A stretch of DNA of 42,391 nt from the IMG/VR virus record IMGVR_UViG_3300035199_001184, positions 1 through 42,391 of that record; one strand, 5' to 3'. Origin of the DNA: a virus. This document shows positions 5,224-35,886 of the stretch, piece by piece; position 1 is the first letter of the stretch, and each line of letters starts with the position of its first letter. The notes under the pieces were generated by a model. The model made no database searches, was not told where the DNA came from, and worked only from the letters and a program-made list of their open reading frames with translations. The translations under genes and the position numbers were made by a program.

Positions 5224-5291
5224 TAACCTTTTCCTTCAATAACGGAGATTTGGGTCAAATAAACCGGCGCCTCAACAGTCAACCAAGTCAT
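5223..5291 (-). CDS. 22-residue coupled mini-ORF
   Basis: A 22-codon ORF exactly fills the interval between two genes. Its ATG (5291) overlaps the stop of the HTH gene as ATGA, and its TAG overlaps the GTG start of the next gene as TAGTG. The peptide is mostly hydrophobic and has no motif. This double stop-start overlap is what one expects of a translated link in a polycistronic chain, so it may be a real peptide or only a ribosome bridge that delivers ribosomes to the weak GTG start. No strong ribosome-binding site is seen. Confidence 0.4.
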   Translation of the reverse strand: MTWLTVEAPVYLTQISVIEGKG

Positions 5292-5572
5292 GGTGTTATC
5301 TCTTCTTCCGCTGTCGACTGATGCGTATTGCGGTTTTCGTATTCACGCACGTCCGACAGCCGATACAGGACAGGACCGCGACTGCCACCGCCCGGCCGAA
5401 AATATCGGGGGCCAATACCTTGATTTCGCCAGTTCGACATCGTGCCGGCGGTGATCTGGCCCTTCCAACGGTTCGACAACTCGTCTGGCGTCAACGAAAC
5501 ATCTTCTTCGCACTGAAGCCATTTTGGCACGCCAGGGGATTCGTTGAGCGTATCCATGGCGGCCGCGCTCAC
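5288..5572 (-). CDS. Helix-turn-helix DNA-binding protein (AlpA/excisionase-like)
   Basis: The 94-residue protein has a central helix-turn-helix: Leu-Thr-Pro-Asp-Glu-Leu-Ser-Asn-Arg-Trp at 27-36, the turn and recognition helix Thr-Met-Ser-Asn-Trp-Arg-Asn-Gln-Gly at 44-52, and a wing ending with Tyr-Arg-Leu-Ser-Asp-Val at 70-75. This is the usual form of small MerR-fold proteins such as AlpA, Xis and terminase-type HTH domains. It starts with GTG at 5572, overlapping the J-domain gene as GTGA; an internal ATG at 5557 is an alternative. It could be a transcription regulator or an architectural protein. Confidence 0.7.
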   Translation of the reverse strand: MSAAAMDTLNESPGVPKWLQCEEDVSLTPDELSNRWKGQITAGTMSNWRNQGIGPRYFRPGGGSRGPVLYRLSDVREYENRNTHQSTAEEEITP

Positions 5573-6156
5573 GACGCTGCCTGCCGCAAGGCATCGTCAC
5601 GCGCCGCATTCAAAGCCACCATCGCCGAATCATCACCGGAACTCGTGTCGGGATGGCATTTCTTGGCTTTTCGCTTATAGGCAGACTTGATGGCATTTAC
5701 CGTGCTATCGATCGGCAGTTCCAGAATATCCCAACATGTCTTACCTGCCGTCGCTGCACCGGATGGCGGTGGCAAGGCCGCGTAGCCGCGAAATGCCGCC
5801 CTCACGATATTCAAACCGCCATGGCGCAGTTTGGTGCGTTCAGCTTCGATGACGAAATGTATGGCTTGAAGGTTTTCTTCGACTTTTTCGTAACGATCAA
5901 CAGCAATGCATGTGCTCAAGCCATCCCAGCTGAAATAGATTGCGACACCAGGATCCCCGGGCCTTTGTTGCCCCAAAGTTACATTCGAAGAGATTACAAC
6001 ACTCTCCGTTTTCTTCCCGCTATCATCGGAAAATTTCCGCAAAGAGTCCTGGACATTGTTGAGAGCCTTGCTGATCGTTGTTCTAAATCGACTGGATTTT
6101 CTTCGTTGGGTTCGTGGCCAATCAGCGGGCCAATGCAGGGGATATGCCTGAGTCAT
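5569..6156 (-). CDS. Phage J-domain (DnaJ-like) protein
   Basis: This 195-residue protein belongs to a known phage family with an N-terminal domain of its own and a C-terminal J domain. The J domain shows the Trp-Asp-Ile-Leu-Glu-Leu start near 142, Ala-Tyr-Lys-Arg-Lys-Ala before the loop, and the essential His-Pro-Asp tripeptide at 168-170. J domains stimulate Hsp70 ATPase, so the protein probably recruits host DnaK to a phage target, perhaps in replication or repressor removal. The N-terminal Trp-Pro-x-x-Trp-Pro-Arg-Thr motif is typical of the family. TAATG couples it to the XRE gene upstream. Confidence 0.85.
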   Translation of the reverse strand: MTQAYPLHWPADWPRTQRRKSSRFRTTISKALNNVQDSLRKFSDDSGKKTESVVISSNVTLGQQRPGDPGVAIYFSWDGLSTCIAVDRYEKVEENLQAIHFVIEAERTKLRHGGLNIVRAAFRGYAALPPPSGAATAGKTCWDILELPIDSTVNAIKSAYKRKAKKCHPDTSSGDDSAMVALNAARDDALRQAAS

Positions 6157-6506
6157 TATTTTTTCCCTTCCCTAATGTGCAACTGGACTTGATTCTCCAG
6201 CGTTTTCAACTGTTGTTTCGTGAGCAATTTAAGGCCTTTCAAACTCCGGATTTCGGCATCGATCTGATCGTTGAGACCCTGGAAGAAAAACAGAATTGAA
6301 ACGTCCAGTGCCTTCGACAATGCGACCAGTCGGGATGATGAAATTCGGTTTTCACCACTTTCATATTTTTGAACCTGCTGGTAGGTGACACCAATTCGTT
6401 CCGCCAACGCCCCAAGCGAAATATTCAGTTCCTGTTTCCTGCGAAGATGGACGCGGTGCCCGACATGTTTGTCGACGGCATCACTGCGGTGTACTGTTTT
6501 CGTCAT
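6156..6506 (-). CDS. XRE-family transcription regulator
   Basis: The 116-residue protein contains an XRE/Cro-CI HTH at about residues 20-75: Leu-Gly-Ala-Leu-Ala-Glu-Arg-Ile-Gly-Val-Thr as helix 2 and turn, Gln-Gln-Val-Gln-Lys-Tyr-Glu-Ser-Gly as recognition helix, Ile-Ser-Ser-Ser-Arg-Leu as helix 4. A short C-terminal helix follows and there is no protease domain, so it is a small regulator of the kind common in alphaproteobacterial genomes. It lies in the middle of the leftward operon, after the recombination genes, and would be made once that operon is transcribed. Its target is unknown; the TACCG arrays are one possibility. Confidence 0.85.
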   Translation of the reverse strand: MTKTVHRSDAVDKHVGHRVHLRRKQELNISLGALAERIGVTYQQVQKYESGENRISSSRLVALSKALDVSILFFFQGLNDQIDAEIRSLKGLKLLTKQQLKTLENQVQLHIREGKK

Positions 6507-7039: not shown

Positions 7040-8721
7040 ATTTCTCCAATATCGGTGCATGGAACGTCGATCAGGATTCCGTTTTTGATCCAATAGCAAT
7101 TTCCGGCATTCTGGGCTGCAAGGTCAGGCGCGGAGCCAGCGCCTTTCATGCTCATGCCGATCAATGAATGATGTTTTCTCATATGAAGCATCTGCAGCAG
7201 ACCGGAACGGTCCACACCTATCAGCACTTCGGCCCCGTCAATCACGACGGCCTGACTGCCATCATGTTCTGCTATGGCGATTTGCAGTGCGACCTGGCAG
7301 CAATATTTTTCTGACTCGGAGAGCAAAAGATAAATCCGCTCCGACATTTCTACTTCCATGTCGTTCGAAACTGACACGGTATGCCATCCGGCATCGTCAC
7401 AGATCTGTTCCAGTCGGGTCCGGAAGTCGGTCATCTTGCTGTTCAGCACCTGATTGCGGATGCCGGATGGATCCAGTGCTTCGACAAATATCTGATTAAT
7501 TCGAGTCTCGTTAGAGAGACGGGTCGCTTCGGTTTTTTTCTTGAACGCCGTAAGTTCCTCTTCCGATTTTTGTACGGCTTGACGCGCGGCATCCACGACC
7601 TCAAGAGAAACCGAATCGATTCCGTTCAACTCGTCAAGTTTGCTCAAAGCTTCTTCAGACTGTCGAAGTTTGCCCTGCGCTAAATTAAGCCCGGCCTGGG
7701 CCGACGACAGTTCGTCTTTTGCTTGCTGAACTTCTTTTTCAGCTTCAGAAATAGCGTTGGTGGCCGTCTTCAATATTTCGTCAGAAACAGGTTCGTGTTT
7801 GACGAGAATCATTCGACCTTCGGCGCGACTTAATTCGACCTTGTCATCGCAATGTGGACAGTCGAAAAGCGCCTCGGACTCGTTCAATCTTGGCAATTTG
7901 GCTAGGGTTTTTTGTATCGTCTCGAGATATTGTTCCGCGTCTTGACTGCGTTTCAATGCTTCGTCGAAATCGGATTTTCTTTGATCCAGACAATCCACCT
8001 GTTCCTGCATGCGGGATTTTTGATCTTCATCGACAGCCTGCCTTGCCACAGCATCTTCGAGTTCCGCCCGCGCCGCCGTTACGATCGCTTGCAAACCATC
8101 TTCTGAACCACCCAAAAGGCTTTCCGTCCAGCCCGCAGGTACCCATGCATCCGCTTTTTTGGTCCCGTAATTTTCGCCCGTGACGTAATTCCATTGGCTT
8201 TTGAACTCGCGACCCTTGTTCTGAAAATGCTTGTGCGTCTGGTCCCAGCCGTCACGTTCAATACGTTCCCAGGCATTAACGACCATGGCCTGGGTGATCC
8301 CGTCGCGATCGGCTACCTCACCATTCAAATCGTCTTTTGTCGGGACGGCTTTCAACAATTCCGTCAGAAACCGGGCACGGTCTTTCGAGCTCATATTGCA
8401 TATTGATTGGGTCCCGACCGCGACCGGACTGGCGTACGGCGGTTGGCCTTCCGTCAGCCGTTCAACCTTGGGCCAGGTCGCGGTTACGGAACCTGTTGAC
8501 GCGGCTATTTCGACGGTGGCCCGACCAGCACCAGTTCGTACCAGTAGCCCAGCCGAACCTTTGTTTATGCCCGCAGGCAACAAGTCCCCAGAGAGTGCCG
8601 CGGCCACGGCGCGACAGATCGATGACTTGCCCTGGTGGTTGTGTCCTCCCAGTAGTGAAATACCGTCTATCTGGAGAGCAGCTTCTTCACATCCCATGAA
8701 ATTGTTAATGCTGATTTTCAT
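7036..8721 (-). CDS. SbcC/Rad50-like recombination ATPase
   Basis: The 561-residue protein has the layout of an SMC/Rad50-type ATPase. A Walker A at 26-33 (Gly-His-Asn-His-Gln-Gly-Lys-Ser) follows an N-terminal beta strand pair; two long coiled-coil arms (about 215-280 and 325-405) flank a Cys288-x2-Cys291 hook like the Rad50 zinc hook; a signature Ser-Glu-Ser-Glu lies at 468-471 and a Walker B ends in Asp495. The residue after Asp495 is Gly rather than Glu, with Glu498 nearby, so the catalytic glutamate is shifted or lost. Encoded next to a Cas4-like nuclease and a probable annealing protein, it likely processes DNA ends. No SbcD partner is visible. Confidence 0.85.
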   Translation of the reverse strand: MKISINNFMGCEEAALQIDGISLLGGHNHQGKSSICRAVAAALSGDLLPAGINKGSAGLLVRTGAGRATVEIAASTGSVTATWPKVERLTEGQPPYASPVAVGTQSICNMSSKDRARFLTELLKAVPTKDDLNGEVADRDGITQAMVVNAWERIERDGWDQTHKHFQNKGREFKSQWNYVTGENYGTKKADAWVPAGWTESLLGGSEDGLQAIVTAARAELEDAVARQAVDEDQKSRMQEQVDCLDQRKSDFDEALKRSQDAEQYLETIQKTLAKLPRLNESEALFDCPHCDDKVELSRAEGRMILVKHEPVSDEILKTATNAISEAEKEVQQAKDELSSAQAGLNLAQGKLRQSEEALSKLDELNGIDSVSLEVVDAARQAVQKSEEELTAFKKKTEATRLSNETRINQIFVEALDPSGIRNQVLNSKMTDFRTRLEQICDDAGWHTVSVSNDMEVEMSERIYLLLSESEKYCCQVALQIAIAEHDGSQAVVIDGAEVLIGVDRSGLLQMLHMRKHHSLIGMSMKGAGSAPDLAAQNAGNCYWIKNGILIDVPCTDIGEI

Positions 8722-9903: not shown

Positions 9904-10717
9904 TCTCTGTTCCTTTTCTGTGCGATTTGCACCATTGGCTGCCCCATGCTGGGCAATAATTCGGACTGCAATTCATCGAATTTGGGTTTGCCGTAAACGA
10001 CCAGGGATCACCCGTTGCCCTGAATTTGATCAGGTCTCTTTTGATGGTTTGGGCGATCGACCAGGCAGCCTTCTCCGAATCCACGAGATCGAAGTTGACC
10101 ATTATCGGTTCGGGTTGAGGCTTGGTCGTGCCGACGCGTTTGGCAAAAATTTCAGTCAACCGATCGACACGATGACCATTCGCCTTGACCAGCAGGGAAT
10201 AACCGCCGTACTGGGCACCGTTGGCCCGTTGGATGGTGCCGGTTTTGTAATCAATCACCGCGTCGATTTCTCGTGTATCGACATGACCTGACAGAGTGAA
10301 GCCTTCGCCAAGATCCGCTTGAAAATATTCCTCTACACCGACCGGTGTGATGCGGTGTCCCATGAAGTCGAGTATCGAACGTGCCTGGCGCAACGCTTGT
10401 TGTCGTGCAACGTCGATATTGCCAGTCGTATCGTCCCAGACAACTTTGCCATCGCCCATTCTTTCGTCTATTTCCGCGTTGACCCTCTCGGCAATCTCCA
10501 CGGCAGACGCTTCCCGACCTTCAACACGTTCGGACATGGCCAAACCGATACCGGCATGGCTGCCAGATCCAATAATGGCGCCGATTGACGGCGGTACCGT
10601 TGCGATTTCATAGCCGGCGCTTTTCACGTCATCTGTGAATGCGCGCGCTGCGTGACGACGCTGACAATCGGGATACATCGGCAGTGAGGACGTCCGAATG
10701 ACAGTATCAGTCATCAT
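9896..10717 (-). CDS. Cas4/RecB-like PD-(D/E)XK nuclease
   Basis: The 273-residue protein carries all landmarks of a Cas4/AddB-type iron-sulfur exonuclease. One Cys is near the N-terminus (Cys18) and three are at the C-terminus (Cys250, Cys255, Cys263), the pattern for a 4Fe-4S cluster. Motif I has His54 in a Gly-Ser-His context, then Asp147 in Gly-His-Val-Asp, Asp156-x-Lys158 in Asp-Tyr-Lys-Thr-Gly and the Gln169-x3-Tyr173 motif. It should degrade DNA ends to expose single strands for the annealing protein encoded next. It lies second in the leftward operon, overlapping the first gene by about 11 bases. Confidence 0.88.
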   Translation of the reverse strand: MMTDTVIRTSSLPMYPDCQRRHAARAFTDDVKSAGYEIATVPPSIGAIIGSGSHAGIGLAMSERVEGREASAVEIAERVNAEIDERMGDGKVVWDDTTGNIDVARQQALRQARSILDFMGHRITPVGVEEYFQADLGEGFTLSGHVDTREIDAVIDYKTGTIQRANGAQYGGYSLLVKANGHRVDRLTEIFAKRVGTTKPQPEPIMVNFDLVDSEKAAWSIAQTIKRDLIKFRATGDPWSFTANPNSMNCSPNYCPAWGSQWCKSHRKGTENE

Positions 10718-11003
10718 TGGAAATCCTCACGGCCCGACAGATGTTCATCCGGCGTTGTGCGCGGTCGATACAACGAACTGTTGCCGTCAAAATTACGTGT
10801 GATGGAACCACACGATTTCCCCAGAACATGAAGTGTCCTGCATGAGCTGCATCTAAAAGGCCGGCAAATGTCGCGAAAGGTTTCCCTTTCTTGTAGAACC
10901 TCCGGGCGGCGCGCATCTTCATGGTCGGCTTCGCCATGTCGTGCGGAGGAATCGGAAGCGGCAAAGCAACGCTTTGATCACGCGACGTCTCAACTTCATA
11001 CAA
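10707..11003 (-). CDS. First gene of the leftward operon, unknown function
   Basis: The frame encodes up to 98 residues with a basic middle (Arg-Arg-Phe-Tyr-Lys-Lys-Gly-Lys near 34-41) and a conserved-looking His-Phe-Met-Phe-Trp-Gly-Asn-Arg segment followed by a Pro-Ser-His-Val-Ile turn. Proteins of this shape occur near recombination genes in proteobacterial prophages, without known function. The start is uncertain: TTG at 11003 has no ribosome-binding site, and ATG codons at 10937 and 10922 also lack a good one. It lies just downstream of the TACCG array A, so its expression is probably set by that region. Confidence 0.6.
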   Translation of the reverse strand: MYEVETSRDQSVALPLPIPPHDMAKPTMKMRAARRFYKKGKPFATFAGLLDAAHAGHFMFWGNRVVPSHVILTATVRCIDRAQRRMNICRAVRISNDD

Positions 11004-11074: not shown

Positions 11075-11131
11075 TACCGTGTTTTACCGTTTTTTTACCG
11101 CCAAACAACCATTAGCGGTATTATTTCGGTA
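11075..11131. repeat. Phased TACCG array A, leftward control region
   Basis: Three TACCG elements on the plus strand start at 11075, 11085 and 11096, and two complements (CGGTA) start at 11116 and 11127. The steps are 10, 11, 20 and 11 bp, so all five face the same side of the helix. The spacer sequence is AT-rich, with a run of seven T between two of the elements. On the minus strand TTGTTT and TAAAAC boxes 16 bp apart (about 11110 to 11083) could be the leftward early promoter, which the array would overlap. I read it as a multi-site operator; intrinsic curvature is an alternative. Confidence 0.6.
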
Positions 11132-11231
11132 TATCAAGGAAATTCTGAAATATTTAATTCCACCCTGAAGGGAACAGGGTTTGAAAGCAGGCTCGTCATG
11201 AATGCAAACTGATACCCTAATTTATTCGGTT

Positions 11232-11259
11232 TTGATATTAATTTTTTAGGGTCTATAGT
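11232..11259 (+). promoter_or_regulatory. Sigma70-type promoter for the HTH/PAS operon
   Basis: TTGATA at 11232-11237 and TATAGT at 11254-11259 are each one base from consensus and separated by 16 bp. The downstream gene starts at 11324, giving a leader of about 58 bases with high AT content and only a weak ribosome-binding site (GGAA about 11 bases before the ATG). The rest of 11132-11323 holds no gene I can support. Confidence 0.55.
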
Positions 11260-11323: not shown

Positions 11324-11779
11324 ATGCCAGATACAAAACAAAAATCTGAACCGGTCTATGGATTTACAGTTGAGATCGGGAATCGCATAAAAAGAACGAT
11401 TGAAAGTTCAGGCGGTTTGACGGCAGCAGCTGCTATTGCAAACACCACCGACGATACCTTGATGAATTGGTATAAGGGAAATTCCCGTCCAAATTTATTC
11501 GGTATATCAGCGATCGCTCACAAAGCTGGCGTCAGTGTCGACTGGATTATGACTGGAACCGAACCGGACAATTCTCATTTGATGGGCGATGTCGGGGATG
11601 ATCGGCTTTACAAAACGACGCGAACACTGCTCGAGAAAATTACCGAAACAGATTTGCACCCCTCACCAGAGAAACTTTCCAGGGCGATAGTTCTCTGTTA
11701 TCGGCTTTTCAAAGAAAAAAAACGTGAAGAGGACAGCGAGACAATTATTGATCAATTGACAGATTTGCTCAAACCTTGA
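11324..11779 (+). CDS. CI/Cro-type HTH regulator without protease domain
   Basis: The 151-residue protein has an N-terminal lambda-repressor-like domain (residues 13-75): Gly-Asn-Arg-Ile-Lys in helix 1, Gly-Gly-Leu-Thr-Ala-Ala-Ala-Ala-Ile-Ala as helix 2, a recognition helix around Asp-Asp-Thr-Leu-Met-Asn-Trp-Tyr, and the closing Val-Ser-Val-Asp-Trp-Ile-Met-Thr-Gly typical of phage CI-like HTH proteins. The C-terminal half is charged helix without S24 motifs. It is the first gene of a plus-strand set that ends in a PAS-like gene, and array A lies upstream. It may be a Cro-like switch protein or a second repressor. Confidence 0.85.
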   Translation: MPDTKQKSEPVYGFTVEIGNRIKRTIESSGGLTAAAAIANTTDDTLMNWYKGNSRPNLFGISAIAHKAGVSVDWIMTGTEPDNSHLMGDVGDDRLYKTTRTLLEKITETDLHPSPEKLSRAIVLCYRLFKEKKREEDSETIIDQLTDLLKP

Positions 11780-11876
11780 CGATCTATTTTGATTGAACTA
11801 CACGCAAAATTTGTGCAGTGTTCGGTGAATGGTAACTCGTTTTAGTGTAAAAAATAGATGAAGAGTGAATTTTAGG

Positions 11877-12164
11877 ATGAGTAAAAATTTTCACGTTGAT
11901 AGTGAATTGCGAAAGGTGCTGGACGAAATATTTGATGAAAAATCGACCGTTGTCGCAGACGCTGTTTCGAATTTCGCTCAGTCAAATGGCGTTGAAGTTT
12001 TTGTTACGACATTCTGCCGATCCGAATTCGGCAATCAGAATTTGTCGGTACTATCCCCTGTTCAGCTAGACAGGGTTTGCCGCTTCCTGATTGTCCTGAT
12101 GTCCGCCGGTGAAATTAATTCAGACGAAAGCATTCATGAAAACAGACTTGCTTCAACAGGATGA
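11877..12164 (+). CDS. Small protein between HTH and PAS genes
   Basis: The 95-residue acidic protein is mostly predicted helix and has no motif I recognise. Several starts are possible: GTG at 11865 or ATG at 11877. I prefer the ATG, although neither has a strong ribosome-binding site. The stop overlaps the PAS-like start as ATGA, which argues that it is translated and coupled to the PAS protein. The 97-base gap after the HTH gene has no clear terminator, so the three genes probably form one transcript. Confidence 0.55.
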   Translation: MSKNFHVDSELRKVLDEIFDEKSTVVADAVSNFAQSNGVEVFVTTFCRSEFGNQNLSVLSPVQLDRVCRFLIVLMSAGEINSDESIHENRLASTG

Positions 12165-12643
12165 CAGACGTCGTTGTCCCTGTCAGCCTGGAGCAAGCAC
12201 TCAGCGGCACGCTGGGATCGATGGCTTATCAGTGGTGGACCGCCTCAAGGGGCTGGTTGGACCGCGACCCCTTCAAGAATTTGTCGGATATCATTTCCCT
12301 AACACATGTTTCTGTTGTCGAAGGTGAAGATGTTCCACGCCGGTTTTTTTTCGTTGGGGCAGACTCGCCAGCTGCGGATATATTTGGCAAGGATTGGGCC
12401 GCATCTGCTTGTGAAACTGAATTTCTACCGGACAGGAACGGCGAAGCAATTTGCAATCCGGCATATCTGACAGCGCGCCTTGAGCACCGGCCAATAGCTC
12501 ATTTTTGTTTTGTCGATTTCAACAACGGTGAAATGGTCACTGAACTACAATACAACCGTCTGCTTCTACCTTGTCGGATACGTTCAGGGGCGCCGTTGGT
12601 TCTGTGTGTCTCTGACTTACTCCACAAGAGATCATATAATTGA
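12161..12643 (+). CDS. PAS-like domain protein
   Basis: The 160-residue protein resembles the stand-alone PAS-like domain common in Alphaproteobacteria: a Trp-Trp-x-x-x-Arg-Gly helix near 25-31, Pro-Arg-Arg-Phe-Phe-Phe-Val-Gly-Ala-Asp near 59-68, then a Gly-Lys-Asp-Trp segment and the two C-terminal strands with Leu-Leu-Leu-Pro-Cys-Arg and Ala-Pro-Leu-Val-Leu-Cys-Val-Ser. Such domains bind small ligands or partners. Inside a phage switch region it could sense a host signal and act on the HTH protein. Its last 107 bases overlap the 3' end of the opposing GNAT-like gene. Confidence 0.65.
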   Translation: MTDVVVPVSLEQALSGTLGSMAYQWWTASRGWLDRDPFKNLSDIISLTHVSVVEGEDVPRRFFFVGADSPAADIFGKDWAASACETEFLPDRNGEAICNPAYLTARLEHRPIAHFCFVDFNNGEMVTELQYNRLLLPCRIRSGAPLVLCVSDLLHKRSYN

Positions 12644-13295
12644 GATCTTCTTTTGTAGACCAGACGAAACAATCTGTCAGACTTCTGTTCTCGGGAATGT
12701 TGCCGACCCAGTGAATTGCTGCGGGCTGGACGTGATGGTACCCGATCTGAATTCCATAGCCGGCATTCACCAGTTTTTCGGTGATGTAACCCCAAATATA
12801 TTCCGGGTCCCATTTTAGAACTGCCAGCGCAATCAGGAGCCGCGACAACTTCGTCGCCAGTCCCCCCTCTCGATGAGCCGGATGAATGTATAGATCACCA
12901 TGATAAGCGGTGCGGCCCGTAACCTGATTGACCGCCGGCGCGTGGCCTGACAGTCCTGAACCTGGTGTCGGATCACAAAAAATTCGCCTGTATTGTTGAT
13001 CCAGATGCTTCGATAACGGGACGGAAATATGTTCAAAGCGCATCCCCTCGACCGCAACGATACGATCTTCTGATGTCGCTTTGACCCACAATAAATTCAT
13101 TGGATCTATATCAATAAAGTCGGGATTGAACGGCGGTGTGATCCAGGGCTTCCCAAGGTTTTCATCTCTGCACGCCTCTTCGAACGCGTCAAACTTGTCA
13201 TCCACTTCGATAATAAAACCGTCTTTTCGCAACTCCTGAACCAAAGTCGCGACGTAGATTGACGCGTTGAAATGCAGTTGACCATCCATAACCAT
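12537..13295 (-). CDS. GNAT-family acetyltransferase-like protein
   Basis: This roughly 252-residue protein has the GNAT acetyl-CoA-binding region in the middle: a Leu-Tyr-Ile-His-Pro-Ala-His-Arg strand followed by Arg-Glu-Gly-Gly-Leu-Ala-Thr-Lys-Leu-Ser-Arg, the Arg-x-x-Gly-x-Ala loop and helix. A later Asn-Ala-Gly-Tyr-Gly and Gly-Tyr-His-His segment fits the fold's final strands. ATG at 13295 is preceded by GGAGG at about 9 bases; ATG at 13289 is equally possible. It lies downstream of the repressor on the same strand and may be expressed from the prophage (lysogenic conversion or switch function). Its substrate is unknown. Confidence 0.75.
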   Translation of the reverse strand: MVMDGQLHFNASIYVATLVQELRKDGFIIEVDDKFDAFEEACRDENLGKPWITPPFNPDFIDIDPMNLLWVKATSEDRIVAVEGMRFEHISVPLSKHLDQQYRRIFCDPTPGSGLSGHAPAVNQVTGRTAYHGDLYIHPAHREGGLATKLSRLLIALAVLKWDPEYIWGYITEKLVNAGYGIQIGYHHVQPAAIHWVGNIPENRSLTDCFVWSTKEDLNYMISCGVSQRHTEPTAPLNVSDKVEADGCIVVQ

Positions 13296-13381
13296 CACCC
13301 TCACCCTCCAAATTTCAACGACTATATCGCCATTGTTCAGACAAGTGAATTAACAGGGGGCCAAGACACCTAAAAGTTAAT

Positions 13382-13999
13382 CTAAATTTTCTTCCCGACA
13401 TAAATGATCCGGCCCACAACATCCAGAGCCGATACATCATCAGTTGAAACGACGCTGCCGGAATAGGCCTGATTGTCCTGAGACATAACCAGACCGTTTG
13501 TCGTGGTTTGAATTCGTCGGATAAACGGATCGCCCCGCAGGCGCATTACGTATACGGCACCGTCCGACAATATTTTGTCGCTTACATCAATCAGGAGAAG
13601 ATCTCCAGAACCAATGAGCGGTTCCATGGCATCGCCTTTAGCTGTCATAGATTTGAAATCGACGCTGCCAAACTTTTCCATCAAATAGACGTAGCTGAAT
13701 GGAATTACGTTACTACTTCCGTCAAAACAATCCGCTACCAATACGATGTCATCGAAGGATCGAAGGGGGCTCTTACCCAGTAACTCGTCGAGGGTGATGC
13801 CCAAAACCTGGGACAGTTTCTTTGCCTTGTCCGGCTTCATGTTTTTGCTGCGACCGCGCATTACATTTCGGATTGTGTCGCGCGGAAAGCCGGATATTTT
13901 TTCCAGATTTGTAAGACCGTGAATGCCGAGATCTTCCATTCGCTGCCGGATTACTCCAATCATTCTGGAAACGTCATTTCCTTCCACAGACCTGTCCAT
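13382..13999 (-). CDS. S24/LexA-type phage repressor lacking catalytic residues
   Basis: The 205-residue protein has an N-terminal HTH (about residues 10-70, with Thr-Asn-Leu-Glu-Lys-Ile-Ser-Gly-Phe-Pro-Arg-Asp-Thr-Ile-Arg) and a C-terminal S24 fold. The strand that normally reads Gly-Asp-Ser-Met-Glu-Pro reads Gly-Asp-Ala-Met-Glu-Pro, so the catalytic Ser is Ala124. The Lys expected in the Val-Lys-Arg-Leu-type strand is Arg161. It should bind DNA and oligomerise but not cleave itself after RecA activation. I chose ATG 13999 because GGGAG lies 8 bases upstream; longer readings lack a ribosome-binding site. Array B lies directly upstream, as expected for an operator of this gene and of the divergent rightward operon. 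Confidence 0.88.
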   Translation of the reverse strand: MDRSVEGNDVSRMIGVIRQRMEDLGIHGLTNLEKISGFPRDTIRNVMRGRSKNMKPDKAKKLSQVLGITLDELLGKSPLRSFDDIVLVADCFDGSSNVIPFSYVYLMEKFGSVDFKSMTAKGDAMEPLIGSGDLLLIDVSDKILSDGAVYVMRLRGDPFIRRIQTTTNGLVMSQDNQAYSGSVVSTDDVSALDVVGRIIYVGKKI

Positions 14000-14056
14000 C
14001 CTTCTATCTCCCGCGACCCGAATTTCAATGAGAAACATTCTTATAACAATCAACGG

Positions 14057-14194
14057 TGGTACTTTCAAGCAATTTGTACCTATTTTTCACCGCACTTAGA
14101 TGTTTTCAAACTCATTTTGCCGAATTTTTACCGTTTATTTTCTATAATCGGTACTTTCTGTTTGACTTTACCTATTGTGTACCGCTATTCGGTA
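14057..14194. repeat. Phased TACCG array B, divergent control region
   Basis: Exact TACCG/CGGTA elements start at 14129, 14149, 14180 and 14190 (steps 20, 31, 10 bp). One-base variants start at 14057 (TGGTA), 14077 (TACCT), 14088 (CACCG), 14118 (TGCCG) and 14169 (TACCT), in the same phase: the full series of steps is 20, 11, 30, 11, 20, 20, 11, 10. The array fills the spacer between the leftward repressor gene and the rightward helicase gene, where operators of a temperate phage are expected. The stretch 14000-14288 contains no gene I can support. Confidence 0.65.
14143..14148 (+). promoter_or_regulatory. Candidate -10 box inside array B
   Basis: A perfect TATAAT lies at 14143-14148 immediately before an inverted TACCG element. 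No good -35 box is found at 16-18 bp upstream (TTGCCG at 14117 would need a 20 bp spacer). A second candidate rightward -35, TTGACT at 14162-14167, has no good -10. The rightward early promoter is probably in this region but I cannot fix it. Confidence 0.3.
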
Positions 14195-14288
14195 TGCACC
14201 AGCGGCAATTACAGCATCAGCTGTTTTCATACGGGTAACCCCATTCCCGTCGCCGCTGGTGCAAATGGGGTGAAAATGGGGAAGTTGT

Positions 14289-15776
14289 ATGATTGAGTTG
14301 CGGGAAAACCAGAACGAATTTGTTGCCGGGATCCGGCATCATTTCGCGCACGGTAGTACTGCACCTGTCGGTGTCGCACCCACGGGAATGGGCAAAACAG
14401 CCTGCCTTTCCGAGATGTCCCGGGGAGCCACCGAAAAGAGCAACACTGCGATGATTGTTGTTCATCGGCAGGAACTGGTTCTGCAGACATCTCTTGCCCT
14501 GTCAAAGTTCGGGATATGGCACGGACTGATTGCTACGCCTGCAGTCGTTCGTGCGGCGATAAAGCAGCAGATCAGGGAACACGGTAAATCTTTCTTCAAT
14601 TCGGACGCGCCGGTCACGGTTGCCAGCGTCCAGTCCCTTGTTCGTCAACTGGACAGCACTAAACCTGTCCAGTTTTTGATGCTTGACGAATGCCATCACG
14701 CCACTGCCGGTTCATGGAAAAAAGTTATCGAATTCATGCCCGATGCCAAATTACTGGGCGTCACGGCAACGCCTGAAAGACTGGACGGAAAAGGCCTTGG
14801 TGTCCATGCCGGTGGATGCTTTACATCAATGGTTATTGGGCCAAGTGTCGATAGTTTGATTGAACAGGGCTGGCTGGCTCCCCCTGTCATCTATGCCCCT
14901 CCCAAGGCGCTTGACCTTGCCGGACTTCGAACCCAGGCCGGTGATTTCGCCCGCGGGGACACTGCCAAAAAAATCGATAGCCCGACCATCACCGGAGATG
15001 CGATTACGCATTATCAACGCTATTGCAACGGTGTACCTGCAATTGCTTTTTGCGCATCAGTAAAACATGCGGAACACGTGGCGGCTCAATTCAGGGAAGC
15101 AGGGTACCAATCATCCTGCATCGACGGAAAAATGAATGACGTCGACCGGCGCGCGGCCATTACCGGATTAGGTGAAGGTCGACTTCATGTACTTACGTCA
15201 TGCGACATCGTCTCGGAAGGAACAGACATCCCGATTGTTGGCGCTGCAATTTTGCTACGGCCAACAAAATCACTGGGATTGTATCTGCAACAGGTTGGCC
15301 GGGTTCTCAGAATGTATCCCGGAAAAACCCATGCGACCATTCTGGATCACGTCGGCAATTCGATGCGGCACGGTATGCCCGAGCAGGAGCGAAACTGGTC
15401 GTTGGACGGTCGCAAAAAAAGAGAGACCGACACAGGCGAAGCCGGGGCACCGGTTCGACAATGCACCAGTTGTTACAGCGTCTATCGCGCCCAGTTGATG
15501 GTCTGCCCACAATGCAATGAGCCGTACGTTCCGAGTAGTCGCCAAATAATGGAAGTTGATGGCGATTTGGTGAAGGTCGACAAAGAGGTTCTGAAATATC
15601 GGCGCATGCAGGAAAACTTACAGGCCGAAACACTGCCTGAGTTGAAAGAACTGGCCCGAAGGCGTGGCTACAAAAATCCGGATGGTTGGGCCCGACACGT
15701 GGCCAATGCGAGAAATCGGAAACAGCAGGCCGGCCAATCCTCATTCATTCTTGAACCTCCAGCGGGTACATCATGA
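14289..15776 (+). CDS. SF2 (DEAD/DEAH-like) helicase with zinc ribbon
   Basis: The 495-residue protein has the superfamily 2 motifs in order: Walker A Ala-Pro-Thr-Gly-Met-Gly-Lys-Thr near 30-37, motif II Asp-Glu-Cys-His near 132-135, Val-Thr-Ala-Thr-Pro (motif III), and motif VI Gln-Gln-Val-Gly-Arg-Val-Leu-Arg near 333-340. A C-terminal zinc ribbon with Cys pairs near 391-394 and 405-408 follows. This build is common for phage replication or recombination helicases of the SSL2/RecG-like type. GGGGAAG lies 7 bases before the ATG. It is the first gene of the rightward early operon, downstream of array B. Confidence 0.9.
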   Translation: MIELRENQNEFVAGIRHHFAHGSTAPVGVAPTGMGKTACLSEMSRGATEKSNTAMIVVHRQELVLQTSLALSKFGIWHGLIATPAVVRAAIKQQIREHGKSFFNSDAPVTVASVQSLVRQLDSTKPVQFLMLDECHHATAGSWKKVIEFMPDAKLLGVTATPERLDGKGLGVHAGGCFTSMVIGPSVDSLIEQGWLAPPVIYAPPKALDLAGLRTQAGDFARGDTAKKIDSPTITGDAITHYQRYCNGVPAIAFCASVKHAEHVAAQFREAGYQSSCIDGKMNDVDRRAAITGLGEGRLHVLTSCDIVSEGTDIPIVGAAILLRPTKSLGLYLQQVGRVLRMYPGKTHATILDHVGNSMRHGMPEQERNWSLDGRKKRETDTGEAGAPVRQCTSCYSVYRAQLMVCPQCNEPYVPSSRQIMEVDGDLVKVDKEVLKYRRMQENLQAETLPELKELARRRGYKNPDGWARHVANARNRKQQAGQSSFILEPPAGTS

Positions 15777-26433: not shown

Positions 26434-26937
26434 CTATGCCGAGCGCTTCGCCGGTTTTCGACCGGGCTTCTGTCTCGGACGGTATCGCACCAATGCGCTG
26501 CGCATCGTTGAACTGCCTTCGACCGCGTCGCAGGCTATCTGCACTGTTCTGGGTATGACTGTTTCCCGATCTCGGTAATTGCGCACGGTCCGCACCGTCG
26601 TACCCAGCACGTCCGACACTTGCTGTTCGGTGAGTTGAACCCGCTTTTGCCATGCCCGGAAATCCCGCCCTGTCATCTTTCTCTGAACGGTCGCTACGCG
26701 GTGCAAACTGCCGGCTGAATAATCCAGTTCGAATTTTGGCCAGGCGATTCCCCCACCGAAATTGATGATCTCGACATTTCTGAATTCATCATTGTCACGC
26801 AACGGTCCAAAGTGCCGGGAACGAAAAATAATGCTCTCGAGGTCGGCATCTGATATCAGCCCGTCACTGAATTCTATGTTGAGCACATACGGCTGTTCAG
26901 TGGTCTTCAATTTTGCAATTTTGATCATGTCAGTCAT
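26434..26937 (-). CDS. DUF2442 domain fused to XRE-like HTH
   Basis: The 167-residue protein has an N-terminal DUF2442-like domain: Tyr-Val-Leu-Asn-Ile-Glu-Phe-Ser-Asp-Gly near 16-25, Asn-Val-Glu-Ile-Ile-Asn-Phe-Gly-Gly-Gly-Ile-Ala-Trp-Pro near 54-67. A C-terminal HTH follows (about 90-135: Leu-Thr-Glu-Gln-Gln-Val-Ser-Asp-Val-Leu-Gly then Thr-Val-Arg-Thr-Val-Arg-Asn-Tyr-Arg), and a basic Arg/Lys/Pro tail closes it. DUF2442 and DUF4160 proteins are often encoded as a pair, and toxin-antitoxin-like behaviour has been suggested for such pairs. Here the HTH makes this the probable autoregulator. I chose ATG 26937 (GAGAT about 7 bases upstream); ATG 26970 has no ribosome-binding site. Confidence 0.8.
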   Translation of the reverse strand: MTDMIKIAKLKTTEQPYVLNIEFSDGLISDADLESIIFRSRHFGPLRDNDEFRNVEIINFGGGIAWPKFELDYSAGSLHRVATVQRKMTGRDFRAWQKRVQLTEQQVSDVLGTTVRTVRNYRDRETVIPRTVQIACDAVEGSSTMRSALVRYRPRQKPGRKPAKRSA

Positions 26938-26951
26938 TTCACATCTCACTT

Positions 26952-27176
26952 TCAGCTGAACTCTTTCCATTTGTCGTTCAGCAGCTTTTTGTTTTTGATG
27001 GCCCAGGGCATCACGTGTTTTTTTGCCCGCCGTGTCAATTTACCTTCTAAGACCTGCATGGTCGCGATTTCGACCTTTGCCTGGGTCTCACCATCGATCA
27101 CATGGAAATGAGGCGGGTTGTCATCCTCGAAGTACATGTAGACCTTGACGCTGTTGATTTCGATGATGGTGGGCAT
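26952..27176 (-). CDS. DUF4160 protein
   Basis: The 74-residue protein matches the small DUF4160 family: Met-Tyr-Phe-Glu-Asp-Asp-Asn-Pro-Pro-His-Phe-His-Val near 14-26 is its signature, followed by an Ala-Lys-Val-Glu-Ile strand and a C-terminal helix with Trp-Ala-x-Lys-Asn-Lys-Lys-Leu-Leu. Members usually precede a DUF2442 gene, as here. Molecular function is not established. GGAG lies 8 bases before the ATG, and a good promoter with a palindrome lies just upstream, so this is the first gene of the leftward accessory transcript. Confidence 0.85.
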   Translation of the reverse strand: MPTIIEINSVKVYMYFEDDNPPHFHVIDGETQAKVEIATMQVLEGKLTRRAKKHVMPWAIKNKKLLNDKWKEFS

Positions 27177-27231: not shown

Positions 27232-27344
27232 GGAAATAAATGGGTAATCCGGTAAAAACCTCATTGTTTTTCGACAATCAGGATATTCCTCGATAATAGC
27301 CGGGAATTAGTGCAAATAATTTATCGACGAAGGCGGGCAATTAC

Positions 27345-27612
27345 AATTCACACCTATTTTCGTTAATTATCAATGGCATAGTTGTGAGCGGGGGGTGTGA
27401 ATTTCCGGAAAAACATCCCCATATAGTTTTGATAGCGCCCGCCCCTTAATAACCCCTGAATTATTTGAGGCAAATAAATATTACCCGCCGCGCTAAACCT
27501 CGTGAGGCCTATATATACATATATAAATTCACACTTTAATGAATAATATAATAATAATAAGAGGTTAGGGTGTGAATATGGGGTGTGAGGGGGTGTGAAC
27601 GCATTCACACCC
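27345..27612. repeat. GTGTGA(A) repeat cluster with AT-rich segment
   Basis: Seven copies of GTGTGA or its complement TCACAC lie in a 268-base gene-free stretch: TTCACACC at 27347, GGTGTGAA at 27394, TTCACACT at 27528, GGTGTGAA at 27569, GGTGTGAG at 27582, GGTGTGAA at 27592 and TTCACACC at 27604. Between the third and fourth is a very AT-rich segment (about 27508-27560). Repeats beside an AT-rich stretch are the form of an iteron-type origin, and also of a multi-site operator. The rest of 27232-27344 holds no feature I can support apart from one CGGTA at 27250. Confidence 0.55.
27594..27609. promoter_or_regulatory. CRP-type palindrome TGTGA-N6-TCACA
   Basis: The two innermost repeats form a TGTGA-N6-TCACA palindrome, the core consensus of CRP/FNR-family regulators, inside a longer perfect 9-bp inverted repeat (GGGTGTGAA/TTCACACCC around CGCA, 27591-27612). 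It lies about 12 bp upstream of array C. Either a host CRP-like regulator or a phage protein that reads the repeat cluster may bind. No T-run follows, so it is not a terminator. Confidence 0.45.
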
Positions 27613-27620
27613 TCAATCCG

Positions 27621-27666
27621 TACCGCAATATTCTTGACTTTACCGTTTTTTTACCGCCTGATACCG
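27621..27666. repeat. Phased TACCG array C, upstream of the late region
   Basis: Four exact TACCG elements on the plus strand start at 27621, 27641, 27652 and 27662, with steps of 20, 11 and 10 bp. A TTGACT box (27634-27639) lies inside the array, but no convincing -10 box follows at normal spacing. The middle pair (TTTACCG, T-run, TTTACCG) is nearly identical to the middle of array A. The array lies 30 bases upstream of the first late gene. Confidence 0.6.
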
Positions 27667-27695
27667 CATCATCAACGACCTTCGACGAATGGGGC

Positions 27696-32529: not shown

Positions 32530-32555
32530 TACCGATTAATACGTTATTTGTACCG
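32530..32555. repeat. Phased TACCG pair D, upstream of GpW-like gene
   Basis: Two exact TACCG elements start at 32530 and 32551, 21 bp (two turns) apart, with a TACGT at 32540 halfway. The second is followed by CATCAT, giving TACCGCATCAT, identical over 11 bases to the last element of array C (27662). The pair ends four bases before the ATG of the GpW-like gene, which has no ribosome-binding site, so binding here could affect transcription or start selection. Confidence 0.5.
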
Positions 32556-32559
32556 CATC

Positions 32560-34444: not shown

Positions 34445-34816
34445 ATGGTCGAACTTTCGGATTGGGAACTGGTGATAGGGCTTGGAGGGTTGGGCGCTTC
34501 TTGGCTTACAATCCTGTTTGGTGTTTTTAAGTACATCATGAAGCGTGTCGACGATATGAACGCCGCGATGATTGAAGACATCAAGGACATCGACAAGAAA
34601 TCGAGTGATCGTAATTCTGATTGCCACAAACGGCTGGATGCCGAAATTCCACTCATGATGCGACGGGACGAAGCGGAGATTCATTTCGAACGAATTGAAA
34701 AATTAGTGACCAGTCAAACCGGTACTTTTCAAAACCTGATTAATAACCAGACAGCGCGAATCGATCAAATGATCACTTTGATCGCTGGCCTGAAACGAGG
34801 TTCTTTAGCAGATTGA
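34445..34816 (+). CDS. Membrane-anchored coiled-coil protein
   Basis: The 123-residue protein has one hydrophobic helix near the N-terminus (about 9-31) followed by a long charged helix with heptad spacing (about 35-115), a layout like hemolysin-XhlA or spanin-like accessory proteins. There is a single Cys at residue 60. It lies between portal and protease, where lysis genes are not usual, so its role is uncertain. AAGGG is about 11 bases before the ATG, an adequate but not strong site. Confidence 0.6.
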   Translation: MVELSDWELVIGLGGLGASWLTILFGVFKYIMKRVDDMNAAMIEDIKDIDKKSSDRNSDCHKRLDAEIPLMMRRDEAEIHFERIEKLVTSQTGTFQNLINNQTARIDQMITLIAGLKRGSLAD

Positions 34817-34818
34817 TT

Positions 34819-34854
34819 TACCGTTTTTGTACCATATATACCTATTTTTTACCT
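34819..34854. repeat. TACC array E, upstream of head genes
   Basis: One exact TACCG at 34819 is followed by TACCA at 34830, TACCT at 34839 and TACCT at 34850, with steps 11, 9 and 11 bp. The first element is preceded by TT and followed by a T-run as in arrays A and C. The array sits between the stop of the membrane-coil gene and a terminator hairpin before the head protease gene. It is the least exact of the arrays. Confidence 0.45.
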
Positions 34855-34891: not shown

Positions 34892-34926
34892 GCCGCCGCT
34901 CCATTTGGAAAGTGGCGGCTTTTTAT
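34892..34926 (+). terminator. Rho-independent terminator before the head genes
   Basis: GCCGCCGCT (34892-34900) pairs with AGTGGCGGC (34911-34919, one G-T pair) around a 10-base loop and is followed by five T, A, then two T. This is a complete intrinsic terminator for rightward transcripts. The next gene starts 13 bases later, so head genes need read-through (antitermination) or a promoter of their own in or near array E. Confidence 0.75.
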
Positions 34927-34938
34927 TAAGAGGGTCGA

Positions 34939-35886
34939 ATGCCAGACAGGGTCACAGAAACTCAGACCGTTTCCATTCCGCCAATGACGCGTACCGGCGC
35001 ATTCTTGTCGGATACGATTGACGAAGAAAGCCGAACAATCGAACTCGTTTTTACGACTGGCGCTCAAGTCCGGCGTTTTGACTGGTTTGACGGCGAGTAT
35101 CTTGAGGAATTAAGCGTGAAGAGCGGTGCTGTTCGCATGGAACGTTTGAACAATGGCGCTCCGCTACTCGATTCCCATCGTTCCCATAGTCTTGACGGAA
35201 TGCTGGGTGTCGTTGAAACCGCGAAGATAAAAAAAGGCGAAGGAATTGCCACCGTCCGGTTTGCACGCGGCTTCGAAGCAGCTGAAAAGGTGTGGAACCT
35301 GGTAAAAGACGGGATCGTTCGAAACGTCTCTGTTGGCTATCGCGTGCACGAACTCAACGAAACAAAAAAGAAGGCCGGGGTGCGCGTACTTCGTGCCGAT
35401 GACTGGGAACCCTACGAGGTGTCATTGGTTGCTGTCGGGGCGGATGCCGGTGCTGGGATCCGTTCCGATGACGTACTTGCCGCTCCCTGCAATTTGACCC
35501 GAACCATGCCCAAAGGAACAACGGAAATGGACAACCAAAATCAAGACGATCGAGAAGTTCGTTCAGGTAATGACGATGCTGACGAACCGAAAAATGGCGG
35601 CGATGTACGAAAAGCATCCGAAGCCGATTCGACGCGAAATGACGCCAAGGAAATCATGGAAATTTGCGAACTCGCCGGCGCATCAATGCGCGAAGCGAAC
35701 GCATTCATTCAGGGCGACAAGACGCCGGCACAGGTTCGTTCCGCTCTTTTGGAAAAACGTGATGCCGGGTTGGGAAATGATGCTGAGATAAGCGGACAAC
35801 ATCAACCTTCTGATGGCATCGAACAGCGCGGACTGCTGGCAGGCCGCATGGCGGACACACACAAAATTTCGACGAAAGGAAACTAG
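34939..35886 (+). CDS. HK97-type prohead protease with scaffold-like tail
   Basis: The first about 180 residues match the U35/HK97 prohead protease: Asn-Asn-Gly-Ala-Pro-Leu-Leu-Asp-Ser-His with catalytic His80, then Gly-Ile-Val-Arg-Asn-Val-Ser-Val-Gly-Tyr with Ser131 near 125-134, and Glu-Pro-Tyr-Glu-Val-Ser-Leu-Val. The remaining about 130 residues are polar and acidic with a short helix, as expected for a fused scaffold. It would cleave capsid components during maturation. GAGGG lies 6 bases before the ATG. A protease of this type beside a lambda-E-type capsid is seen in other chimeric phages. Confidence 0.88.
   Translation: MPDRVTETQTVSIPPMTRTGAFLSDTIDEESRTIELVFTTGAQVRRFDWFDGEYLEELSVKSGAVRMERLNNGAPLLDSHRSHSLDGMLGVVETAKIKKGEGIATVRFARGFEAAEKVWNLVKDGIVRNVSVGYRVHELNETKKKAGVRVLRADDWEPYEVSLVAVGADAGAGIRSDDVLAAPCNLTRTMPKGTTEMDNQNQDDREVRSGNDDADEPKNGGDVRKASEADSTRNDAKEIMEICELAGASMREANAFIQGDKTPAQVRSALLEKRDAGLGNDAEISGQHQPSDGIEQRGLLAGRMADTHKISTKGN

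Follow-up and report, generated by a model that had tools for sequence, protein, structure and literature searches.

Operator regions of the lambda type consist of three 17-bp dyads, with OL and OR flanking the immunity genes and overlapping the early promoters and the promoter of the repressor gene, which is read leftward; Mu operators, like the arrays described below, contain several short sites. The LexA box of alpha-proteobacteria, by comparison, is a direct repeat of 4-bp half sites, GTTC-N7-GTTC (PMC3323433). Rco of pLS20, a tetrameric helix-turn-helix (HTH) repressor, has two operators over divergent promoters, in which short direct repeats are clustered in groups of at least six and at least four, ten or more in all (PMC9986798). 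The head-to-tail filament formers lambda Xis, 186 Apl, P2 Cox, BldC and RdfS recognize repeats spaced one helical turn apart and pointing in a single direction (PMC7498355; PMC11963761). In cluster A mycobacteriophages, elongation is halted at stoperators, each of which is a single asymmetric site (PMC9283540).

The window analyzed here, a virus record of 42,391 bp, contains four arrays of short TACCG-like elements. One of them, array A2 (14057 to 14194), lies between the gene for a CI-like repressor and the rightward early operon. Its nine elements are, in order, TACCA at 14057 (minus strand), TACCT at 14077 (plus), CACCG at 14088 (plus), TGCCG at 14118 (plus), TACCG at 14129 (plus), TACCG at 14149 (minus), TACCT at 14169 (plus), TACCG at 14180 (plus) and TACCG at 14190 (minus), that is, four exact copies and five one-base variants in mixed orientation, with steps of 20, 11, 30, 11, 20, 20, 11 and 10 bp. 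All of these were re-found as described in a first-pass annotation, and the single helical phase proposed there is equally clear (R 0.98 at a period of 10.25 bp, p 5e-5, which is the resolution limit of the test). Four exact TACCG within 151 bp have a probability of about 0.001 in sequence of such composition. Counts of one-base variants show no excess (7 seen versus 4.3 expected), but the exact copies define a lattice, and 5 of the 7 variants sit no more than 1.5 bp away from it (P 0.026); the two out-of-phase variants, at 14054 and 14183, had been missing from the earlier list. The observation is independently supported by the further arrays elsewhere in the window, which that entry of the annotation does not mention.

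As had been proposed, the A2 control region is composed of many short elements on one helical face, and not of the two or three 17-20 bp dyads per region that define a lambda-type set. The accompanying statement that no dyads are present does not hold: direct reading of the sequence reveals a perfect dyad, TACCG-CTATT-CGGTA (TACCGCTATTCGGTA), at 14180 to 14194. This 15-bp dyad stands alone, and 11-bp direct repeats dominate the array. Likewise, the 138 bp given for the spacer is the span of the array itself, whereas the intergenic gap measures ∼289 bp (14000 to 14288), because the repressor most likely begins at the ATG at 13999. A TATAAT hexamer (14143 to 14148, plus strand) does abut the inverted element at 14149; its use as a promoter is uncertain, since no good -35 hexamer is found at 16-18 bp.

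Helical phase was scored for all 512 five-letter words, using pairs at distances of 10, 11, 20, 21 or 31 bp. TACCG, a motif that originated from the earlier look at this same window, is the most phased word of all, with 16 in-phase pairs against 1.09 expected (p 6.5e-14), followed by a runner-up at p 8e-5, and off-phase control distances gave nothing comparable to this signal. The signal derives from A2, from A1 (11075 to 11131, at the leftward early operon; five exact TACCG, three on the plus and two on the minus strand), from A3 (27621 to 27666, plus strand; four exact TACCG, ahead of the late operon opening at 27693) and from a plus-strand pair at 32530 and 32551. The latter, 21 bp apart, is a possible minor site (A5, 32530 to 32555), and the next gene, at 32557, precedes the portal gene. 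Array A4 (34819 to 34853, plus strand) emerges once TACC rather than TACCG is allowed, with four copies (34819, 34830, 34839 and 34850) ahead of the prohead protease gene at 34939. Compared with 60 fourth-order Markov simulations, the phased-array scores of A1, A2 and A3 (15, 14 and 12) exceed the maximum of the best simulated array (11), and the score of A4 (9) exceeds the simulated maxima for the second and lower ranks (8, 7 and 7). Across the window TACCG is in mild excess (96 copies; third-order expectation 79), and 24 of the 96 lie in intergenic DNA, which by our own gene calls makes up 7% of the sequence. The arrays are real and strongly non-random, and chance is excluded.

Within the arrays, one spacing recurs. 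TACC-N7-TACC, a same-strand pair, is present in 7 copies versus 0.55 expected, six of them inside arrays, and among pair gaps of 3 to 19 bp only the two-turn gaps of 16-17 bp are raised besides N7. The longer composite TTGA-N2-3-TACC-N7-TACC is found exactly four times in the window, once in each operon-start intergenic region and nowhere else. Simulations (n = 200) gave a mean of 0.005 and a maximum of 1, although both the composite and the N7 statistics were framed post hoc, after the arrays had been seen, so that the composite p-value overstates the case. The one-per-operon spread, however, was not built into the test.

The composite at 11117 to 11137 (minus strand, TTGATA-TACC-N7-TACC) would mark a putative pL for the leftward early operon, the first gene of which occupies 10707 to 11003. 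The one at 14162 to 14183 (plus strand, TTGACTT-TACC-N7-TACC) would supply the -35 hexamer and direct-repeat operator of a putative pR ahead of the helicase gene at 14289. The same TTGACTT variant at 27634 to 27655 (plus strand) is a putative late promoter before the minor tail gene at 27693, and a second is proposed at 34813 to 34833 (plus strand, TTGATT-TACC-N7-TACC), followed by TATATA at 34835 to 34840. In each case TTGA would be the -35 hexamer, placing the direct repeat inside the -35/-10 spacer. The predicted -10 hexamers after the four composites are weak (TATTCG, TAATGG, TGATAC and TATATA), and a consensus scan reveals an alternative promoter in A1 (TTCAGA-18-AATAAT, 11149 to 11120), which makes the exact transcription starts uncertain. 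The putative repressor promoter pRM (TTGAAA-17-TATAAG, 14040 to 14068, minus strand) has good hexamers on direct reading; the TACCA element at 14057 lies in its spacer, and the region contains TTGA-N3-TACC at 14068 on the minus strand. The composite is absent from the predicted promoter of gene 11324 (11232 to 11259), and likewise upstream of the DUF2442 and DUF4160 genes (26434 to 27176). Since these and the likely lysogenic genes from 11324 onward go without it, its distribution points to a repressor acting on lytic units.

Gene order is lambda-like and matches the lambda immunity region: the leftward operon is followed by A1, genes 11324 to 13304, the repressor gene (read leftward), A2 and the rightward operon, which opens with a DNA helicase gene (14289 to 15776, plus strand). 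A1 and A2, one to either side of the immunity region, lie where lambda-type operators would be expected, at promoters that are predicted. Farther along, the gene opening the late operon was assigned to a minor tail protein (PHROG 1924), and the prohead protease assignment derives from a weak PF04586 match.

Several other features of these regions were recorded. In the immunity region, gene 12537-13304 has a weak GNAT acetyltransferase match (under the Pfam cut-off) and overlaps an opposite-strand ORF (12161 to 12643). Next to the late operon, two leftward genes, DUF2442 (with an HTH-like C-terminus) and DUF4160, resemble a toxin-antitoxin pair. Just upstream of A3, a second repeated motif (TTCACACC/GGTGTGAA) occurs in several copies (27344 to 27611) that end in a 22-bp palindrome, GGGTGTGAA-CGCA-TTCACACCC, a possible site for another regulator. 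The rightward operon leader contains a long hairpin (14196 to 14263) closed by TGCACCAGCGGC/GCCGCTGGTGCA (z -2.1) and without a T-run. Between A4 and the prohead protease gene, a GC-rich hairpin followed by TTTTTATT (34892 to 34924) resembles a leader terminator or attenuator; it was not listed by the consensus scan. An Rfam search returned no match.

The repressor gene (13382 to 13999, minus strand, start codon preceded by GGGAGATAGAAGG) encodes 205 residues with an N-terminal Cro/C1 HTH (HTH_26/HTH_3, E 3e-4 to 5e-4, slightly under the Pfam cut-offs) and a C-terminal S24-like domain (PF00717, E 1e-10, above the cut-off). It also matches a PHROG repressor family (E 1e-19), and its architecture is that of the S24/CI-like phage repressors. 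In an alignment with five homologues, however, the protein carries Ala in place of Ser (A124, GDAM replacing GDSM) and Arg in place of Lys (R161, IRR replacing VKR/AKR) and has no SAG, the Ala-Gly cleavage site, whereas all five homologues carry GDSM, Lys and SAG. We take these to be the catalytic and cleavage residues from an alignment with UmuD and general knowledge of the S24 family. Neither the Ser/Lys pair nor the Ala-Gly site associated with self-cleavage is therefore found in this protein, which is S24-related but probably not self-cleaving, and RecA-driven induction is unlikely as a consequence of these losses. An AlphaFold model of the repressor alone reached a pLDDT of 42, too low for use. 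The closest known phage proteins are the D3112-type c repressors (∼27% identity), which, unlike the protein described here, keep the Ser/Lys pair; the control regions of D3112, JBD5 and RR1-B showed no comparable array, and distant S24 homologues (22-28% identical) had no TACCG-type arrays at their own control regions.

The elements, their phasing, their positions ahead of operons and the lost residues are observed, whereas the promoters, the binder, repression and cooperativity are inferred from them. The explanation that we consider reasonably probable is that the arrays form a phage-wide operator regulon of this CI-like repressor, with A2 as its right-hand part; the 13382-13999 protein is the most likely binder. 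The unit operator, TACC(G)-N6/7-TACC(G), would be an 11-bp direct repeat immediately following a TTGA that resembles a -35 hexamer. A repressor dimer on TACC-N7-TACC would cover the -35/-10 spacer and block polymerase at all four lytic promoters, with one such operator preceding each of the lytic units (early left, early right, tail/late and head/late). With the additional TACC(G) half sites on the same face, each site would comprise four to nine elements, on which further subunits could join, making binding cooperative and steep. The repressor would act as dimers or higher oligomers, and the dominant 11-bp pair, being a direct repeat, is consistent with bound dimers. In A2, strong repression would come from the exact copies over pR and weaker autoregulation from the variants toward pRM. 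Cooperative multi-site occupancy is plausible because the many short A2 elements share one helical face and overlap predicted promoters, and the stepwise occupancy suggested in the first-pass annotation is possible given this split between exact copies near pR and variants near pRM. Because the S24 domain is without its catalytic pair and cleavage site, induction would probably depend on dilution or on an antirepressor, and not on self-cleavage stimulated by RecA.

This proposed regulon combines traits of several known systems. Like lambda OL and OR, two putative operator regions flank the immunity genes and overlap the early and repressor promoters (here predicted), with the repressor read leftward. 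Unlike in lambda, a short direct repeat forms the unit, numerous half sites are added to it, and it is present at two late units as well. The geometry of the alpha-proteobacterial LexA box (4-bp half sites, a 7-bp gap and an 11-bp direct repeat) is the same as here, and LexA is likewise a regulator with an S24-type domain, so an S24-domain regulator on such sites would not be unprecedented. The sequence of the box differs, however, the sites are clustered here, and the candidate binder has a Cro/C1 HTH whereas LexA has a winged HTH. Rco is an HTH repressor, like the candidate, and its short direct-repeat elements are clustered, as are the TACC(G) boxes, but it has no S24 domain and its two operators lie 75 bp apart, in contrast to four phage-wide arrays. 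As with stoperators, short asymmetric sites are spread over a genome under one repressor (here proposed), although the clusters in this phage sit on putative promoters.

A different phage regulator could bind the arrays, for example one of the HTH proteins encoded at 11324 to 11779 or 6156 to 6506, in the role of a repressor (Cro-like or Rco-like) or of an activator common to the lytic promoters. Both are HTH regulators by profile, gene 11324 adjoins A1, Rco offers a precedent for an HTH protein on short direct repeats, and an activator would suit the weak -10 boxes. Nevertheless, none of the arrays includes the probable promoter of 11324, gene 6156 sits within the leftward operon, and the phage would lose its temporal order if early and late units shared an activator. 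An activator is also disfavored by the usual effect of sites between -35 and -10, which is repression. We regard this alternative as unlikely, yet as one that deserves weight. Head-to-tail filaments of an excisionase-like winged-helix protein of the Apl/Cox/Xis type would account for elements one helical turn apart, a trait shared with Apl, Cox, Xis and BldC; Apl sites are direct repeats at this spacing between pR and pL (PMC7498355), and the 5288-5572 product is a candidate by a weak HTH_17/excisionase match (E 0.003-0.006). Those proteins bind contiguous, same-direction arrays with low sequence specificity, in contrast to the mixed orientation, gaps of 20-30 bp (two to three turns) and strongly conserved TACC core with its strict CC found here. 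The arrays also stand at late operons, and no integrase was recognized in the window. The filament reading of A2 in the first-pass annotation is likewise not supported, given the mixed orientation and the gaps, and an excisionase-type binder was rejected as very improbable.

Two further readings dispense with a dedicated repressor site and were also rejected. If the arrays were helically phased T-tracts, either intrinsically bent or UP-element-like, with TACCG as a mere edge, the T-runs before or after many elements would be explained; the information, however, resides in TACC(G), with its two invariant C, rather than in the T-run, the elements at 14190, 27621 and 27662 have no T-run, and AAAAA/TTTTT is not among the top phased words, which leaves this reading scarcely credible. 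Replication-origin iterons or chance repeats recall the TACCG-type tandem arrays found near replication-like genes in some other viral contigs. Those arrays are mostly single and tandem with repeated flanks, whereas four separate arrays, each ahead of an operon, are present here, and we give this last reading the least credence of any.

Searches for relatives of the proposed repressor regulon found no sequence with both motif and repressor in the collections searched, from which records closest to the window may have been absent. By shared peptides, neither the repressor nor the helicase had relatives in IMG/VR, and GTDB genomes yielded none for the repressor. Fixed-gap TACCG scans returned 103 and 79 stretches, about the number expected by chance by our own estimate, as well as tandem arrays partly near replication-like genes; none of the matches had a close repressor homologue. 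Among 33 terminase relatives, no repressor match was found and TACCG pairs were not above a reversed-pattern control, which is what an exchange of immunity modules would produce. In the stretches read, no comparable array was seen in Bordetella and Pseudomonas ZRG1 phages that have a related helicase, and a relative sharing helicase and primase (G008) had no repressor adjoining its helicase.

Scans of viral and genome collections for the composite promoter gave few, chance-like matches, except for one case, L249:3421-3490 (same in L248 and L251), in which TTGACTT-TACC-N7-TACC-N7-TACC-N8-TACC adjoins a prohead protease gene of another phage but points away from it. Two terminase relatives offer leads with other words. 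G005, from the phage group of L112 and L114, carries a phased TGTCC array (p 5.5e-10), its elements mixed in orientation, flanked by the end of a primase-like gene and a minor tail homologue, a place comparable to that of A3 (L234:1939-2151; also L112 and L114 at 8245-8361, upstream of a minor-tail late operon). In G029, nine dispersed near-identical palindromes, TGTGACC-NN-GGTCACACC (L229:2258-19840, L230:214-225), look like a dispersed operator set. Neither was tied to a regulator, and because single phased arrays of other words were not rare among the viral loci examined, both are leads and not proof.

The layout described here, in a phage of temperate type, is an unusual version of an otherwise familiar off-switch. 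A stronger version of the proposed regulon, which we put forward only tentatively, is that all early and late promoters are closed by one S24-derived repressor that is not cleavable and that binds cooperatively, on one face, to phased direct-repeat half sites in the promoter spacer, with array length and titration rather than RecA cleavage setting the switch. If the regulon reading is true, the phage would possess a compact repressor regulon that can be read from sequence, spanning early and late operons, with its half sites spaced one turn apart. The length, orientation and phase of the arrays would then be variables through which to ask how cooperativity sets the lysis-lysogeny switch, and the inactive S24 domain poses the question of how such a prophage gets induced.
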